Shown: positions 2,212 through 24,783 of the stretch, in pieces
How positions within the stretch are numbered: the stretch's first letter is position 1
Layout of the letters: each line of letters starts with the position of its first letter
Virus record (IMG/VR): IMGVR_UViG_3300024433_000031
Location: 1 to 31,326 of that record
Length of the DNA: 31,326 bases
DNA from: a virus
Strand: one strand, 5' to 3'
The notes under the pieces: generated by a model
Database searches by the model: none
The model's input: only the letters and a program-made list of their open reading frames with translations
What the model was told of the DNA's origin: nothing
Position numbers and translations under genes: made by a program

Positions 2212-4770
2212 TTATTCTCTTATTAATAGTTGTAGGTCTTTAACTAACATATCATCATTACTATTAGTATTTTCTACATATAGTTCTATATAATCGTTTT
2301 GACTCATTAAAGTCCCATAAACAAGGGATAAGGCTCCAGTTGCATCAGCTTCAACTTCTGTAGCTGAACCTGGTAAAAGTACTCCATTTTTATAAAAATA
2401 AAAAGTATATGGATCTGTACCTCCGCCTTGTTTTTCGTAAGATATTGAAGCGTGTAAAGATACATAAACTTGTTTAGTACCATTGTACGTGTTTCTACCA
2501 ACAGCCGTTGTCGTGTACCTAACACCACTTTGTTGAGTGGCAAGTCCTCCTGTGTTTACGTTTGTAGGGGTGTTAGCTGATAAAGTTGTAACAGCTGTAT
2601 TGCCAACAACTGTCATTATTACACCTGAAATAGAGTTTAATATTCCTTGATTAGCAAACACATCGTAAGTATATGTTGCAGTTTGTGAATAATCAGGTAA
2701 ACTACTTGCTTCAGGTAAGAATACTTTTCCTGTTGTAAGTCCTGTGTTTATAAATGCATTAGATGATATAGTACCAAAACCTGTAGTAGACGCTGCGTTT
2801 ATATCAATACCGTTTTGAGTTTGTTGTGGGTGTATAATGCATCCATTAATATTAACAGCTCCAAATGAAGCAAAGTTATTAGCTCTTAGTTCTATCATTG
2901 AACAAGTGGCCCAACCAGAAGGTGTAGGGTTGGTTGTTTCATCATACCAACGTATTAATTCACATGATGCAAACTCTATTTTAGACGTGTCTCTAAATCT
3001 TAAACCTATACTAGGTGCTTGTATATAGAAAAATAATGTGTTTGATATATCAACTAAATCAAAGCCATCTATATCCATTACATTGTAACAATTCCTAAAC
3101 TGACAGTTGATTATTTCAAGTACTTTTGTTCTTCCATTATTAAATCCAGACGCAGTAACATTTGACCCCTTAATTAATAATGAGCCTGTCGTTGTAGATG
3201 ATATCCACACATCCCTTAGTGTGAAGTCAACATCTATTATTGTTATAAAATCCCCTGTGCCAGTATATACTAATTTATCTAGCTGTCTATTATTACCAAT
3301 TATTGAAACACCTTCGACTGAAACAACTAGCCTACTACTACATGTAACTGAACCTATGACTTGATAAGTAGTGTTAGCAGGTAAAGTTATGACACCTGCT
3401 ACAGGAGTTCCAAAGTCGCTTTCTTGAGTTACTTCTATTATAGCAGTTAAATTAGCCGTTCTTCTTACAGAACCAGCGTTCCATGTTAATGTATCTGTTA
3501 ATGTTGCTACTCTAGATGTTCCAACAGTACTATTCGTTGTATAAATATTTGGAATTGTAGCAAATTCTAAATTACCTGTTCCTGAATTATAGGTTAAAGC
3601 TTTTCCGTTATCTGCAGGAGCGACTGTTGTAGGAAAAGAATATGCAGAGTTTATATTTAATTTACTTACAGAAGCTCCTTGTGTTCCTGCTACTTGAAAA
3701 TCATATACTCCAGGAGCAATGTTAATTCCTACTCTTCCTCCGTTAAAGTTTAAAGTATCTGTAACAGTAGCTACAGTAGTTGTAGGAATTGTTCCTGAAG
3801 CAGTATATATACTTGAAGCAGCGCCTGTAGCAGCTTTCCAAACAGCGTCTCCAGTTCCAGTATCTTTGGTAAGTACATGCTCATTAGTTGCTAATCCTAC
3901 TCTTGTAAGAGCATTTGTAGCTAGTTGAGGTGTAATTTGTCCTGTTCCTCCATTAGCTATAGCTAGGGGTGTTCCAAGAGTTAATGCTCCTGTTATTCTT
4001 TGATCGCCTGATACATCAAGTCTATAAGCACTAGGAGCAGCGCCTATACCTACATTATCAGTACTAGCATCTAAGTATAACATTGGAGGATTTACTCCAT
4101 CACCATCAAATATTAAATCAAAAGCTCCAAGTGTTACTGTTCTATTACCTGTTAAACTACCATCTGTTGTATATATAGTAGGAGTTAAAGAAATAGCATT
4201 ATTAACCCATTCTCTTGAAGGAATTACTTTAGGATTAAGGTCTGCAGTAATGTTAGCTACACTATTACCTGTTCCTGAATAATAAGCTAAGTTATTTTCT
4301 ATAATAGTTTTACCTGAATTATTGTACAATTCTATACCGTCTACTCCCGAAAGTCTAACTTTTGTTGGAGGTGTTCCAACGCCTGTATTTTCAAAACTTA
4401 AATAAGTTGATACACTAGAACGTACTTTTAATGCTGTTACTGAACCAGTAGGATTATCAAAACTAATAGATTTAGTATTTGCTACTAACACTTCTCCTCC
4501 TGGGCCTAAATTAATATTTGCAGCTGTATCTACAGTAAATTCACTTAAGCCTTTAAAATGTAAAAAATTATTTGCTCCTGTAAGTAGTCTGCCTCCTGTA
4601 AGAGTTCCGTCTATTGAATAAATAGTAGTATCTCCTTGAGCAATTGGTATTAAATTACCATACCTATCTTTATAATAAAGAACTCCATCATAGCTATTTT
4701 TGAAAATCTCTATTCTAGCTTGAGTTTCGTTTCTAGCTTGTCTAGGAAATATTTTAGGTATAAGACTCAT
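2212..4770 (-). CDS. Large tail fibre/tailspike-like protein (852 aa)
   Basis: This is a long, Thr/Gly/Asn-rich beta protein with the look of a phage receptor-binding fibre. The N-terminus (MSLIPKIF, then a short helical part and a Tyr-rich Y-Y-K-D-R-Y-G-N strand) probably attaches it to the virion. Between about residues 195 and 440 are imperfect repeats opening with I-Y-T-(T/A) and carrying a TLTDTL(T/N)(W/F)N motif, separated by TGxGxxxW/F loops. Residues about 440-690 have the short regular strands and Asn ladders of a right-handed beta-helix. The last 130 residues form a compact beta domain (an aromatic FYFYKNG strand, then YIELYVEN) resembling a C-terminal trimerising or receptor domain. 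I saw no catalytic motif. Gene position at the distal end of the late block, next to the LamG gene, agrees with a host-recognition role. Confidence 0.75.
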   Translation of the reverse strand: MSLIPKIFPRQARNETQARIEIFKNSYDGVLYYKDRYGNLIPIAQGDTTIYSIDGTLTGGRLLTGANNFLHFKGLSEFTVDTAANINLGPGGEVLVANTKSISFDNPTGSVTALKVRSSVSTYLSFENTGVGTPPTKVRLSGVDGIELYNNSGKTIIENNLAYYSGTGNSVANITADLNPKVIPSREWVNNAISLTPTIYTTDGSLTGNRTVTLGAFDLIFDGDGVNPPMLYLDASTDNVGIGAAPSAYRLDVSGDQRITGALTLGTPLAIANGGTGQITPQLATNALTRVGLATNEHVLTKDTGTGDAVWKAATGAASSIYTASGTIPTTTVATVTDTLNFNGGRVGINIAPGVYDFQVAGTQGASVSKLNINSAYSFPTTVAPADNGKALTYNSGTGNLEFATIPNIYTTNSTVGTSRVATLTDTLTWNAGSVRRTANLTAIIEVTQESDFGTPVAGVITLPANTTYQVIGSVTCSSRLVVSVEGVSIIGNNRQLDKLVYTGTGDFITIIDVDFTLRDVWISSTTTGSLLIKGSNVTASGFNNGRTKVLEIINCQFRNCYNVMDIDGFDLVDISNTLFFYIQAPSIGLRFRDTSKIEFASCELIRWYDETTNPTPSGWATCSMIELRANNFASFGAVNINGCIIHPQQTQNGIDINAASTTGFGTISSNAFINTGLTTGKVFLPEASSLPDYSQTATYTYDVFANQGILNSISGVIMTVVGNTAVTTLSANTPTNVNTGGLATQQSGVRYTTTAVGRNTYNGTKQVYVSLHASISYEKQGGGTDPYTFYFYKNGVLLPGSATEVEADATGALSLVYGTLMSQNDYIELYVENTNSNDDMLVKDLQLLIRE

Positions 4771-20532: not shown

Positions 20533-21420
20533 TTATTGCACTCTTTTGTGTGATGTGTTATCGTAATAGATATCAATAACAGTTCCTTTATAGTCAGTAT
20601 CTACTTCTTGGCCTTGAATATTAAAGGTTTTCCATATCTTTTTATTTACCTCTTTCATAACAACAGCTACAGGATTAAAATTTTCAGTAGTACCATCATA
20701 ATCTGTTTGTGATAACATATAATAAGATATTCCATTATAAGGATTTGTATCTATCATCATATACAACATATCTTGATTAATATTCCCAGCACCTTCTTTA
20801 ACTCCTACTAATTCCCAAGTAGCACAATCTGTAGATCTATACAAACTAAAGTAATCATTATTAACTTGAGACGATACTTCCCATTCTAATAGTACTTTAT
20901 CTTCACGAGGTATAGCTAAAAAAGATTTAAGTACTATCGGTAAAGAGCCTCCTATAGAAGTAATCTCTAATATAAACCCTGGGTCTCTTACACTATTATC
21001 TGATGACCATAGTAATGTCAATGCTCGAGAAGTATCTGATGATGATATTGTAAGTGGTAAAGTACTGCCACAAAACCTGCCTATTAAACTATCAAACGTA
21101 GAGCCGTGGTATACCTCTAAATAATCATATTGACAATTAGGCTCATATTCTATATCCATAAACATAAAGTTTATAGTAGTATAACCTACTGAAGCAGGAT
21201 AAATAGTAAGAGCACCTAATCCATTATTAGCATATCGTTGTGTGTAGCCATCATCATATACAAAACCATAGTCGCTTTCCCAATCGTACCAGAAACCATC
21301 GTTAGGCATAAGCACTGTTTGTGAGCAGCATTTAAATAAGCTAACTATTATTAGTAGGGTTATAATCGTTGTTAATGTGAGTGTACACATACATTTGTCT
21401 ATAAAGTTTCGGTAATCCAT
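20533..21420 (-). CDS. Secreted CUB-domain protein with type IX secretion-like C-terminus (295 aa)
   Basis: I prefer the ATG at 21420, because it places a hydrophobic signal segment (CMCTLTLTTIITLLIIVSLF, residues 10-29) near the N-terminus. A CUB fold follows at about 50-153. Its landmarks are YDYLEVYHG (98-106), a Cys pair (C96, C117) and SSDTSRALTLLWSSD (127-141). Residues about 158-255 resemble the Ig/FnIII-like module of flavobacterial secreted proteins (LPIVLKSFLA, then VNNDYFSLYRS and YYMLSQTDYDG). The last 36 residues (FNIQGQEVDTDYKGTVIDIY) resemble the sorting-type C-terminal domain of T9SS cargo. Such a protein is expected on the surface of a Flavobacteriia host and is unlikely to be virion structure. 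It is probably host-derived. Surface-masking or superinfection exclusion is a guess. Confidence 0.75.
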   Translation of the reverse strand: MDYRNFIDKCMCTLTLTTIITLLIIVSLFKCCSQTVLMPNDGFWYDWESDYGFVYDDGYTQRYANNGLGALTIYPASVGYTTINFMFMDIEYEPNCQYDYLEVYHGSTFDSLIGRFCGSTLPLTISSSDTSRALTLLWSSDNSVRDPGFILEITSIGGSLPIVLKSFLAIPREDKVLLEWEVSSQVNNDYFSLYRSTDCATWELVGVKEGAGNINQDMLYMMIDTNPYNGISYYMLSQTDYDGTTENFNPVAVVMKEVNKKIWKTFNIQGQEVDTDYKGTVIDIYYDNTSHKRVQ

Positions 21421-21502
21421 GGGGTAAAATTTAGTTACATAAAGGTATAAAAAGTAATTGGATAAATCCTTGTGAGTATGAAAAATTTTCACTATGAAAG
21501 CT

Positions 21503-21603
21503 TACTATCATGTTTGTGATAGTAGTAACCATACTAAACGTGGTAGTGGGACTATCATAAACGTGATAGTAGTGGCCAACCGTTTGTGATAGTACAAAAA
21601 CAC
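21503..21603. repeat. Four-copy 23-bp repeat array with palindromic TGATAGT cores (operator or iteron-like)
   Basis: Copies begin at 21511 (TGTTTGTGATAGT), 21535 (TAAACGTGGTAGT), 21558 (TAAACGTGATAGT) and 21581 (CGTTTGTGATAGT), at steps of 24, 23 and 23 bp. Two perfect inverted repeats overlap them: TACTATCA/TGATAGTA at 21503-21524 and ACTATCA/TGATAGT at 21551-21570, each with a 6-bp spacer. It lies between the CUB gene and the plus-strand block, so a regulator-binding array or replication origin is plausible. On the plus strand, GTTG-N20-TATATTTT just downstream (about 21607-21638) could be a weak promoter. Confidence 0.75.
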
Positions 21604-22314: not shown

Positions 22315-22320
22315 TTGTGT

Positions 22321-22348
22321 GAGCCCCGAAATGGGGCTCTATCTTTTT
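22321..22348 (+). terminator. Rho-independent terminator after the 103-aa gene
   Basis: GAGCCCC (22321-22327) pairs with GGGGCTC (22333-22339) around a GAAAT loop, and TATCTTTTT follows. It starts 7 bp after the stop codon at 22314. Confidence 0.85.
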
Positions 22349-22397
22349 CCTAAATACTGAATACTAATTAGATTATTAACCAATAAACTGTGAAGTT

Positions 22398-22475
22398 ATG
22401 AAGAAATATGTTCTTTTTAATGGAGTTGTAATGCCTATTGAGGATTACAATGATATGATTGCCGACAGAGGGTAG
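22398..22475 (+). CDS. Possible 25-aa small ORF
   Basis: ATG follows GAAGTT and gives MKKYVLFNGVVMPIEDYND and six more residues ending in ADRG, then TAG. The composition is like a real protein start, but it stops as the structured RNA region begins. It could be a leader peptide, a broken gene or a chance frame. Confidence 0.35.
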   Translation: MKKYVLFNGVVMPIEDYNDMIADRG

Positions 22476-22775
22476 TCATTGTCTTTCCAATCGTCTAACA
22501 AACGGAGATTCGTCATCTTGGCAACAGAATTGACGGCTATTCATTATTAATTATAGCTTAAACTTATTATTAACTCTCATCCAATTGCTGGCAATGAAAT
22601 TGTCTTGAAATGAAACTACCCTTAGACAAGGTAGCATAGTTCAGTCAAGGATTGCAACCTTGTGAGAGTATGAAATTCGGATACAGTATAAAAACCGTAG
22701 GTTTGAATCCTGAAAACTGTGAGTGCGTAAGCATCTCTAGTAGAGTCACGGGATGTGGCTCTACTTTTTATTAAG
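22476..22775 (+). ncRNA. Structured RNA unit 1 with tRNA-like arms and terminator
   Basis: No convincing reading frame fits. Helices include CTACC/GGTAG (about 22617-22635), CAAGG-ATTGCAA-CCTTG (22646-22662, the shape of an anticodon arm with UGC) and a T-loop-like GGTTTGAATCC (22700-22710). I could not close an acceptor stem, so I do not call a tRNA. It ends in a terminator at 22,741. An imperfect GCCGACA/TGACGGC stem may join about 22,461-22,535. Confidence 0.5.
22741..22769 (+). terminator. Terminator of RNA unit 1
   Basis: TAGAGTCAC (22741-22749) pairs with GTGGCTCTA (22755-22763; one G-U pair), with a GGGAT loop, and CTTTTTATTA follows. The same stem halves and tail recur at 23,010-23,069. 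Confidence 0.8.
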
Positions 22776-22875
22776 AATTAGAAAAGCTGTACGTGCGTTG
22801 GCACATAGTAGTAAAAACTTAAGTTTATACTGCAACAGCGTATACCTAAGCAAGTAGATAAACTGCTTTTTATTA
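22776..22875 (+). ncRNA. Short hairpin unit with its own terminator
   Basis: Contains GTGC-GTTG-GCAC (22794-22805 region), a bulged stem AGTA-G-TAAA/TTTA-TACT around the 12-bp palindrome AAACTTAAGTTT, and a final AAGCA/TGCTT hairpin (22848-22868) followed by TTTTTATTAA. It has no open frame of note. A small RNA is possible, but the hairpins are short. Confidence 0.4.
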
Positions 22876-23069
22876 ACTTAGTGGCGTAATCGGATAGATA
22901 GTGGTAAGCAAACTATTGATGATTCTTGATAAAGGTAACTACAGATTATGTGCATAATGTCTGTAGCAGCAGGTTCGAATCCTTGCCGCCCAAAAAACTA
23001 TGAGTGCGGTAGAGTCACGAGATAGAGTAAGTATCCTAACAAAGGTTCTATCAATGTGGCTCTACTTTT
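22876..23069 (+). ncRNA. Structured RNA unit 2 with T-arm-like motif and duplicated terminator
   Basis: The main hairpin is CTACAG-ATTAT-GTGC-ATAAT-GT-CTGTAG (22939-22966). A T-loop-like GGTTCGAATCC follows (22972-22982), flanked by a bulged GCAGG/CCTTGC stem, and a bulged, broken TGGCG/CGCCCA outer stem could be a decayed acceptor. The 3' end repeats unit 1 (TGAGTGCG, then the TAGAGTCAC/GTGGCTCTA stem). I read it as a paralogue of unit 1 with an extra insertion. Confidence 0.5.
23010..23069 (+). terminator. Terminator of RNA unit 2, expanded by an inner hairpin
   Basis: TAGAGTCAC (23010-23018) and GTGGCTCTA (23056-23064) form the same stem as at 22,741, but the loop has grown to 37 nt and holds its own stem, GATAGA (23021-23026) with TCTATC (23047-23052). 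ACTTTTTATTA follows. Confidence 0.7.
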
Positions 23070-23077
23070 TATTACTA

Positions 23078-23153
23078 TGGGAAGTTAACTGCACATAGAT
23101 GCATATATAGATGCAGGGGAACAAAAGTAATTATTTGTTCTTCTGTCTTCCCA
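23078..23153 (+). ncRNA. Three-way junction RNA element
   Basis: An outer stem TGGGAAG (23078-23084)/CTTCCCA (23147-23153) encloses two arms: CTGCA/TGCAG (23089-23093 with 23112-23116) and GAACAAA/TTTGTTC (23119-23125 with 23134-23140). All three helices are perfect. No open frame crosses it and it is not followed by a T-run, so it is not a terminator. I checked for hammerhead core bases and did not find them. Confidence 0.6.
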
Positions 23154-23299
23154 ACGATATTTAATTACATAGTTTAATAGGTGTATACAGCATATACATG
23201 ACAAAATACCTTTAAAAGAAAAACACTATCGCATAATAACTAGATAGAGATGCATTGAGATATGCTGTAATATTTACTAATCCTTTAATACTTAAAATT

Positions 23300-23410
23300 A
23301 TGACATTTATATCACAAACAGCACCAGATGCCGAAGGGAATTACACTATGAAGTGGAAAGACCAAAACGGTAAAATAAAAATAACATCTCATAACTTATT
23401 TGAAATATAA
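23300..23410 (+). CDS. Small ORF, 36 aa
   Basis: ATG after an A/T-rich leader (CTTAAAATTATG) encodes MTFISQTAPDAEGNYTMKW and 17 further residues ending in SHNLFEI. The composition is ordinary for a small beta protein with charged turns (KDQNGKIKI), so it is probably translated. It is flanked by RNA structures on both sides. Between the three-way junction and this ORF (23154-23299) I see only weak hairpins such as GTATA-CAGCA-TATAC. Confidence 0.5.
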   Translation: MTFISQTAPDAEGNYTMKWKDQNGKIKITSHNLFEI

Positions 23411-24062
23411 TAAGTGCAGAAAATTGTTAAATTATACTAAGACCGTATCTCACCTCTCTTTGGTTAGGCTTGATCACCTGTAATCATTGACCCAAATGAC
23501 GTGAGTGAAGTCTTATTCATAACATATATTCACCGTTGGTTGGTTTCCTTATAAATCAATACTATATGTTATGACAATTTATCAGAAATGATAAACTAAA
23601 TATCCTGTAGGGTGAACTGCAGGATAACTTATTAAAGGTAGTCTGGCCCTTCTAATTACCAGACAGTCCAATGATACACTACAGATATCCGAGGTCCTTG
23701 ACTCTAACCTTGACAAAAAAGAGTAAATGTAATAAGAGAGTCTGATTAGTATGCCAAAATCTGAACATCGACTCTCTAAACTTATTGAAGTGAGGTTGGA
23801 CAGTTATACTGACTAGTGTGAAATACAACTAGGGAATGGAGTAATTACCATTTTGGTCCCTGACTGGATGCACAAAATCCTGCAGGTCTTTGCCTTGCAC
23901 CTCACTTCAACAAATTGCCATCACTATTTATAGTGTAAATATCAAGGGAGAATTTAGGCAACTCCCTTTTAATAAGGCAATGCAACATTCAGGCAATAAT
24001 CTGAGTGAATTGATAGGAATCTGCCAACAGATAGTGAGTTCGAATCTCACCCTTGCCTCTAA
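23411..24062 (+). ncRNA. Large ornate structured RNA (about 650 nt)
   Basis: A chain of strong helices fills the stretch: AAGAC + CTCAC / GTGAG + GTCTT (23439-23514); TCATAACATATA/TATATGTTATGA, 12 bp perfect (23517-23574); TTTATCA-GAAA-TGATAAA with a GNRA-type loop (23578-23595); TATCCTGTAG/CTGCAGGATA (23601-23626); GTCTGG/CCAGAC (23641-23664); AGAGAGTC/GACTCTCT (23735-23777); and TTGAAGTGAGGT/ACCTCACTTCAA, 12 bp perfect, enclosing a further multi-arm region (23785-23910). A tRNA-like segment ends it. The scale and the linkage to tRNA-like sequence recall GOLLD and ROOL class phage RNAs; whether it belongs to one of them is not known. Confidence 0.7.
23976..24058 (+). other. tRNA-like 3' segment of the large RNA
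   Basis: The T-arm is canonical: GTGAG-TTCGAAT-CTCAC (24034-24050), followed by CCTTGCC (24051-24057). GGCAATG (23976-23982) can pair with it at 6 of 7 positions. A D-arm-like ATTC/GAAT and a short ATCTG-CCAA-CAGAT hairpin lie between, but there is no seven-base anticodon loop, so it is not a normal tRNA. GGCAAT can instead pair with ATTGCC at 23914-23919, giving two exclusive folds. Confidence 0.55.
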
Positions 24063-24083
24063 AACTTATTAAAAATAAATGTT

Positions 24084-24357: not shown

Positions 24358-24783
24358 ATGGGAAAAAATAAATGTATACTAGTTGATGTTGATGGTACAT
24401 TAGCTAAAATGAAAAGAGGACCTGGAGAAAGAAGTCCTTATGATTGGGATAGAGTCTTAGAAGACCTGCCTAATCAACCTATTATAGAACTTGTAAATAC
24501 TCTTTGTGATGTATATACTATTATTATCCTTACGGGTAGAGATGGAATAGCATTAGAAGATACAAAGAAATGGTTAAAAGAATATGGAGTCTATTATGAT
24601 GAAATATATATAAGACCTGAAGGTAATAACCAAAAAGATTCTATAATTAAACATAATATATATGTTAATCATATACTACCTCATTATGATGTAGAATTTG
24701 TATTAGATGACCGTGATCAGGTTGTAAACTTATGGAGGTCTATTGGACTTACTTGTTTACAAGTTGATTATGGAAACTTTTAA
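24358..24783 (+). CDS. HAD-family polynucleotide 3'-phosphatase (141 aa)
   Basis: This stand-alone domain corresponds to the C-terminal phosphatase half of T4 polynucleotide kinase-phosphatase (PseT). It removes 3'-phosphates or 2',3'-cyclic phosphates from nucleic acid ends so they can be ligated or extended. Motif I is VDVDGTLA (nucleophile D10, general acid D12). RSPYDWDR (25-32) matches the T4 substrate segment. Motif II is ILTGRD (T59, R61). K98 lies in a position for motif III, and motif IV is LDDRDQVV (D117, D118). The end W-R-S-I-G-L-T-C-L-Q-V is also T4-like. The 5'-kinase domain is absent. T4 Pnkp heals tRNAs cut by host anticodon nuclease; here the gene lies among structured RNAs, so RNA repair is an attractive inference. 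Repair of DNA ends is the alternative. Confidence 0.93.
   Translation: MGKNKCILVDVDGTLAKMKRGPGERSPYDWDRVLEDLPNQPIIELVNTLCDVYTIIILTGRDGIALEDTKKWLKEYGVYYDEIYIRPEGNNQKDSIIKHNIYVNHILPHYDVEFVLDDRDQVVNLWRSIGLTCLQVDYGNF

Follow-up and report, generated by a model that had tools for sequence, protein, structure and literature searches.

The question raised by this locus is whether a structured stretch in the early block of a phage genome (23411-24062) encodes one large ornate non-coding RNA, as had been proposed in an earlier note made from the sequence alone, or an assembly of smaller elements. The DNA analyzed, referred to below as the window, comprises all 31,326 nucleotides of a virus fragment deposited as IMG/VR record IMGVR_UViG_3300024433_000031. 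A minus-strand late block encoding the terminase, the portal and the major head protein is separated in it from a divergent plus-strand early block, which encodes a PNKP-type phosphatase and a family-A DNA polymerase, by approximately 1.77 kb of nearly gene-free DNA (22315-24083). The cultured phage with the nearest terminase is Cellulophaga phage phi14:2 of the Crassvirales (33.6% over 96%), and the window has therefore been attributed to an environmental crAss-like phage. Between the two blocks lies an RNA island of about 1.5 kb, the 3' half of which is the stretch in question; a gene for a 36-aa protein splits the island in two and ends exactly where this stretch begins. BLAST comparison of isolate phages with the island and representative elements yielded no full match.

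The claim that the stretch is non-coding and structured has held up. No believable frame was found across 23411-24083, and the alignment with the sister phage L028, whose polymerase is 98% identical to that of the window, contains indels of 4 nt and 2 nt that a coding frame would not tolerate, which supports the non-coding status. The 652 nt reach a minimum free energy of -173.9, whereas dinucleotide-shuffled versions give -144.4 +/- 8.1 (z -3.65) and none of 20 is as low; local z-scores within the stretch are modest (best, -3.2). Strong consecutive helices, also anticipated in the earlier note, are found at 23518-23573, 23578-23595, 23601-23626 and 23785-23910; these comprise an 11-bp helix (23518-23528 with 23563-23573), a GAAA-capped hairpin, a further hairpin and a perfect 12-bp stem (23785-23796 with 23899-23910). 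The 3' end indeed bears a T arm, the canonical GTGAG-TTCGAAT-CTCAC at 24034-24050, with its acceptor partner present.

The unity of the element has not survived comparison with relatives. BLAST searches against the loci of related phages, which were obtained via the terminase and the polymerase and are designated by L-numbers, revealed a patchwork in which M1a, M1b, M2, M3 and M4 (Table 1) are separate, reordered or interrupted by a gene. L028 keeps M1a-M1b at 93.6% (23440-23732) and is missing M2-M4; its module D, 100% identical over 89 nt, follows M1 instead of preceding it. M1b is present in L028, L029 and L007, and in L029 it lies on the opposite side of M2, which precedes it, with M1a, M3 and M4 absent. 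In L084, a protein gene separates M2 from M3; in L014, L012 and L210, M4 is the only one of M1-M4 and is joined to module C. In L007 and L084, modules directly abut genes. This shuffling and isolation of modules indicates that the flagged element consists of several neighboring cassettes, and a single large RNA spanning 23411-24062 has been rejected on the same grounds. The modular anatomy of the stretch is held with high confidence.

Table 1. Elements of the RNA island in the window, with their relatives
Feature	Positions	Strand	Structure or sequence	Relatives
Island leader	22551-22569	+	TTATAGCTTAAACTTATTA	window and about nine relatives, exact or nearly so
Family A cassette	22573-22671	+	ACTCTCA - TCCAATTGC frame - variable insert - CAAGG/ATTGCAA/CCTTG arm - TGAGAGT	
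Module B	22675-22773	+		L002 (95%), L007 (86%)
Module C	22774-22873	+	GCTGTA - variable insert - ACAGC, then conserved GTATACCTRAGCAWGTAGACAAACTGCTT	
Degenerate tRNA-like element E	22880-22993	+	Leu-type D region, GGTTCGAATCC T loop, bulged T stem (read from sequence)	
Second hairpin copy	23009-23073	+	GTAGAGTCAC..GTGGCTCTAC with TTTTTATTA; terminator-like; 21-nt repeat of 22753-22773	
Module D	23078-23157	+	TGGGAAG/CTTCCCA closing stem, three helices	
36-aa gene	23300-23410	+	splits island in two halves	L002 (homologue)
M1a	23438-23625	+	TAAGAC/GTCTTA domain; 11-bp domain 23518-23573; GAAA hairpin 23578-23595; hairpin 23601-23626	L028
M1b and hairpin	23626-23776	+	M1b 23626-23732, then hairpin 23736-23776	hairpin different in each relative
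M2	23785-23910	+	perfect 12-bp closing stem; adjacent 5-bp/7-nt arm 23882-23898	L029, L084
M3	23915-23966	+	two hairpins, possible GCC/GGC pseudoknot	L084 (gene between M2 and M3)
M4 tRNA-like cassette	23975-24060	+		L014/L012, L210

The leader TTATAGCTTAAACTTATTA, a candidate promoter or leader, directly follows the preceding gene or its terminator, and the module after it differs in each relative. Module B ends in an intrinsic terminator detected by a terminator scan (stem 22739-22765 plus a T run). Module C is one of a family, found at more than 10 loci, whose middle varies; M2 also combines a constant 3' half with a variable middle. Neither ARAGORN nor Rfam called element E. A diverged homologue of module D in L279 preserves the helices through two-sided changes. 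M1a, M1b, M3 and D have 1-3 homologues each, so the folds of M1a, M1b and M3 rest on thermodynamics and little variation. The motif AACTTATTA recurs at module junctions (22563, 23628 and 24065 in the window, and in relatives), with 17 occurrences in non-coding DNA against 2.9 expected, an enrichment that comes partly from the repeated leaders; it is a candidate promoter, processing or recombination site and has also been considered as a possible module separator. The octaloop AGTAATTA was considered as a kissing-loop motif and dropped, given that only six distinct hairpins were found and that the commonest loops resemble ordinary GNRA caps.

Among known RNAs, the earlier note had likened the stretch to GOLLD and ROOL and had recommended searches with the Rfam models of these RNAs and of tmRNA. 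The searches have been run and all were negative: no part of the stretch matched any family at the gathering threshold or at E<=10, so by sequence it is not GOLLD, ROOL, tmRNA or tRNA. The GOLLD model (RF02032) had no match in the window at either threshold and scored 306 bits in the same search on the GOLLD of L116; the ROOL covariance model had no match in the window, and ARAGORN called neither a tRNA nor a tmRNA there. Like the window RNAs, GOLLD and ROOL are phage-borne, non-coding, structured and located near tRNA islands (PMC12286853), but each is one RNA of several hundred nucleotides, whereas the window holds several small independent cassettes that match neither in sequence or structure. 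A single large RNA of the GOLLD/ROOL type over 23411-24062 would agree with the size and the strong global fold of the stretch and with the finding of GOLLD in similar islands; against it stand the negative Rfam result at E<=10 and the occurrence of M1-M4 only as fragments in five contigs (L028, L029, L084, L014 and L210), where they are shuffled or isolated and form no contiguous large RNA, and this reading is very improbable. What remains of the parallel is that GOLLD and tmRNA, absent from the window, occupy like islands in other phages. Islands of this kind may underlie the published link of GOLLD and ROOL to tRNA islands (PMC12286853). In a 77-kb phage contig (L116, 2717-5519), GOLLD (306 bits), a tmRNA and a tRNA-frame RNA, a family described below, were observed in one island.

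The tmRNA (RF00023) resembles the island RNAs in having a tRNA-like domain with an insert where the anticodon arm would be; however, the inserts in the window are too short and too variable for a tag frame plus pseudoknots, and Rfam and ARAGORN detected in the window neither a covariance match nor a tRNA-like domain with a tag frame. In the cultured phi14:2 (L212, NC_021806), the non-coding region that corresponds to the island contains a tmRNA at 4031-4500, with the predicted tag GSSVQKLAMVA, and a tRNA-like element near 1763-1850. This tmRNA is unannotated in the record, from which earlier hypothetical genes of the gap had been deleted.

A recurring design, the top half of a tRNA, has emerged from the cassettes: a 7-bp closing stem is combined with an adjacent arm with 5 bp and a 7-nt loop, and an insert replaces the anticodon arm. 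At least family A, M2 and M4 share this architecture. In M2, the arm is GCAGG-TCTTTGC-CTTGC and stands beside the 12-bp stem. M4 forms a cloverleaf with an AGGCAA-G acceptor containing one conserved mismatch, a long D-like arm and the canonical T arm, and ends in UCUA, not AC; at the anticodon-loop position it has a 5-bp hairpin with a 4-nt loop, and the 5-bp anticodon stem with a 7-nt loop expected of a tRNA (RF00005) is absent. All 27 of its 27 pairs are kept in three sequences, three of them through two-sided changes, each in another helix. The helix covariation that the earlier note asked for is thus seen as compensation in three of the four M4 helices, and M1a, M1b and M3 offer only the few homologues given above; because only three sequences are available for M4, 17 of 500 shuffles equal the observed level. 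A sequence-blind scan for top halves in the non-coding DNA of the crAss clade returned 17 matches in the sense orientation, 4 in antisense and 1.9 +/- 0.6 in shuffled DNA. Most of the matches are clearly tRNA-like; those in the window include M2 and element A, plus one that is probably due to chance. The closing stem with an adjacent T arm and covariation, which marks a tRNA-like RNA, is present in family A, and in M4 by way of the compensatory changes in three sequences. With good confidence, M4 and family A can be regarded as tRNA-like.

Family A, named after the element at 22573-22671, consists of a 7-bp closing stem, the constant 5' frame TCCAA(TT)GCAGG, a variable insert, the arm CAAGG-RTTGCAA-CCTTG and the closing strand, and is not represented in Rfam. 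Scanning viral DNA for the arm pattern returned at least 120 stretches; since the arm is fixed by this pattern, its invariance is not evidence. Members with differing inserts occur in at least 80 phage contigs. Among the matches listed, with the 5' end set by the frame and not by pairing, all 7 closing pairs are present in 93 of 98; when the ends are picked by pairing, a perfect partner exists for 87 of 99 against a 9% background, and 6 of the 7 pairs have changed on both sides (0 of 500 shuffles). The 98 inserts among these matches fall into about 50 groups, and in one insert class of eight sequences 7 pairs have changed on both sides (0 of 500 shuffles). The tail is mostly AC (71 of 87 among the matches listed). 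The elements sit in intergenic gaps with a median of 1.3 kb and are oriented like both neighboring genes in 64 of 72 cases, again among the matches listed.

A second family, the tRNA-frame RNAs, came to light through its 3' half ACAGGTTCGAATCCTGTCCTGACT, which occupies the same genome position in crAss-like relatives. A scan with ACAGGTTCGAATCCTGTCCTGACT identified at least 120 viral stretches, whereas 84,980 genomes of bacteria and archaea yielded four, and the family recurs in more than 100 viral contigs. The matching 5' acceptor AGTCAGG lies within 350 nt upstream of 130 of the 143 3' halves among the matches listed (background, 5.7%), and a D arm of the tRNA-Leu type comes after it. The insert between the D and T arms, 17-271 nt long (median 54), is hypervariable, with 94 members falling into 75 insert clusters, both among the matches listed, and it is weakly structured (mean z -0.75). 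The Rfam tRNA model accepts several members above its cut-off, which indicates that the family is tRNA-derived. Two contigs (L094 and L105) hold up to six tRNA-frame RNAs in 5 kb, with unrelated inserts and genuine tRNAs interspersed, and one insert in L094 resembles that of L125 and sits in another acceptor frame (GTCGGT).

The tRNA-frame tail carries A73 in 135 and C74 in 145 of 149 among the matches listed, with A or T next, and all 38 genuine phage tRNAs compared, 37 of them from tRNA-frame loci, have C74. This shared tail suggests that both are processed alike at the 3' end. The idea that a tail avoiding CCA marks an uncleavable decoy was discarded, as the C-A/T-N tail is also that of ordinary phage tRNAs from these islands.

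Phage tRNA genes and arrays (RF00005) share the acceptor/T-arm geometry and the encoded C74 tail with the island RNAs, and the tRNA-frame family partly scores as tRNA. The possibility that these are ordinary decoding tRNAs, with introns or otherwise, draws on the members above the Rfam cut-off. However, the window RNAs have a hypervariable insert and no anticodon arm and are not recognized as tRNA by Rfam or ARAGORN; in the tRNA-frame family, an anticodon arm occurs at chance level (5 vs 2.35 among the matches listed) and 5-bp helices between insert ends number 12 vs 11.1 in shuffles, again among the matches listed. Anticodon stem halves around the insert were thus not found in this family, which excludes an anticodon stem split by an intron. 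With the 4-nt loop of M4, these results have led to the rejection of anticodon-bearing or intron-containing tRNAs, the least probable of all the readings. Hardly more probable is a functionless, decaying remnant of a phage tRNA cluster: element E looks degenerate and a tRNA of crAss001 is annotated as pseudo, but A and M4 carry compensatory changes and the frames are constant over many contigs.

In the reading favored here, with about even confidence, the stretch 23411-24062 makes up the 3' half of a hypervariable island in which small RNA cassettes, each independent of the others, form a mosaic; of the roles considered for them, that of decoys is the likeliest. A plus-strand terminator scan of 23074-24083 found none, on which basis the cassettes would probably share a transcript with the early genes. 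They could then be excised by RNase P and RNase Z and receive CCA, as the genomic C74 tail of the tRNA-frame family and family A suggests, and the resulting stable RNAs would present an acceptor/T-arm end and be unable to decode. It is proposed, with some reserve, that they may divert, as decoys or competitors, those host factors that recognize a tRNA by its acceptor, T arm and CCA tail, for example defense nucleases that cleave the tail. The fast turnover of inserts and whole cassettes is expected under an arms race. A Cas12a3 of Bacteroidetes reads precisely the tRNA acceptor, T arm and CCA tail, and its authors describe viral countermeasures as unknown (PMC12851939). Phage tRNA variants that evade anticodon nucleases, as cited there (van den Berg et al. 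2023, eLife, via PMC12851939), are likewise tRNA-type phage RNAs possibly countering tRNA-targeting defense; as cited, they still decode, whereas the island RNAs have no anticodon loop.

The main rival to a decoy role is that the tRNA-like frames are scaffolds that stabilize and mature small RNAs, as engineered tRNA scaffolds do, the insert being the active part through antisense pairing or protein binding. A constant frame around a hypervariable insert is compatible with this, as is the weak structure of the tRNA-frame inserts, which antisense payloads might share; yet family A inserts are structured and covarying, and antisense matches between the window modules and the remainder of the window do not exceed those in shuffles, so that antisense to the phage's own genes has been rejected within the window. 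Scaffolding is unlikely, though of appreciable weight. It is improbable that the elements serve only as punctuation, supplying RNase P/RNase Z cuts between early-operon transcripts. In the window as in L014 and L210, M4 sits immediately before the next gene, which would suit such a role, and punctuation of transcripts by tRNAs has a mitochondrial precedent, but the 17-271-nt hypervariable inserts, the conserved insert folds and the several kinds of frame would be left unexplained.

If the decoy reading is extended beyond this locus, many uncultivated phages, including crAss-like ones, might, still more tentatively, possess an undescribed class of tRNA-processed RNAs with a constant acceptor/T-arm frame and, instead of the anticodon arm, an exchangeable hypervariable domain, some members having a non-tRNA "T loop" RUUGCAA. 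These RNAs would be organized in islands of recombining cassettes and would counter the RNA-based immunity of the host, for example by acting as decoys of tRNA-tail nucleases. The new RNA class considered in the earlier note is probable, and no known Rfam family corresponds to the stretch. Judged by Rfam 15 and the open-access literature, both family A (at least 80 phage contigs) and the tRNA-frame family (more than 100) are undescribed; no description of these RNAs was found in that literature, subscription journals lying outside the search. Both families illustrate the use of tRNA architecture by phages without decoding. The island RNAs are a concrete, testable candidate for a viral answer to Cas12a3-type defense (PMC12851939) and would account for the puzzling non-coding gaps of crAss-like phages; with phi14:2, a cultured phage is available in which to study them at the bench.

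Several further features were observed around the island. The signal AATCCTTTAATACTTAAAA, a candidate phage promoter, precedes the 36-aa gene and recurs before many genes of the clade. Just after the island (24358-24783), a stand-alone polynucleotide kinase-phosphatase (HAD) domain of the RNA-repair type is encoded. In the late block, Pfam assigns a CUB domain (E 2.8e-13) to the protein at 20533-21492, which is unusual for a bacterial phage. Finally, strongly structured inverted repeats, ACTATCATA../..TGTGATAGTAGT, lie just upstream of the late block (21480-21600; z -5) and are kept in many relatives; they perhaps form a bidirectional control region.
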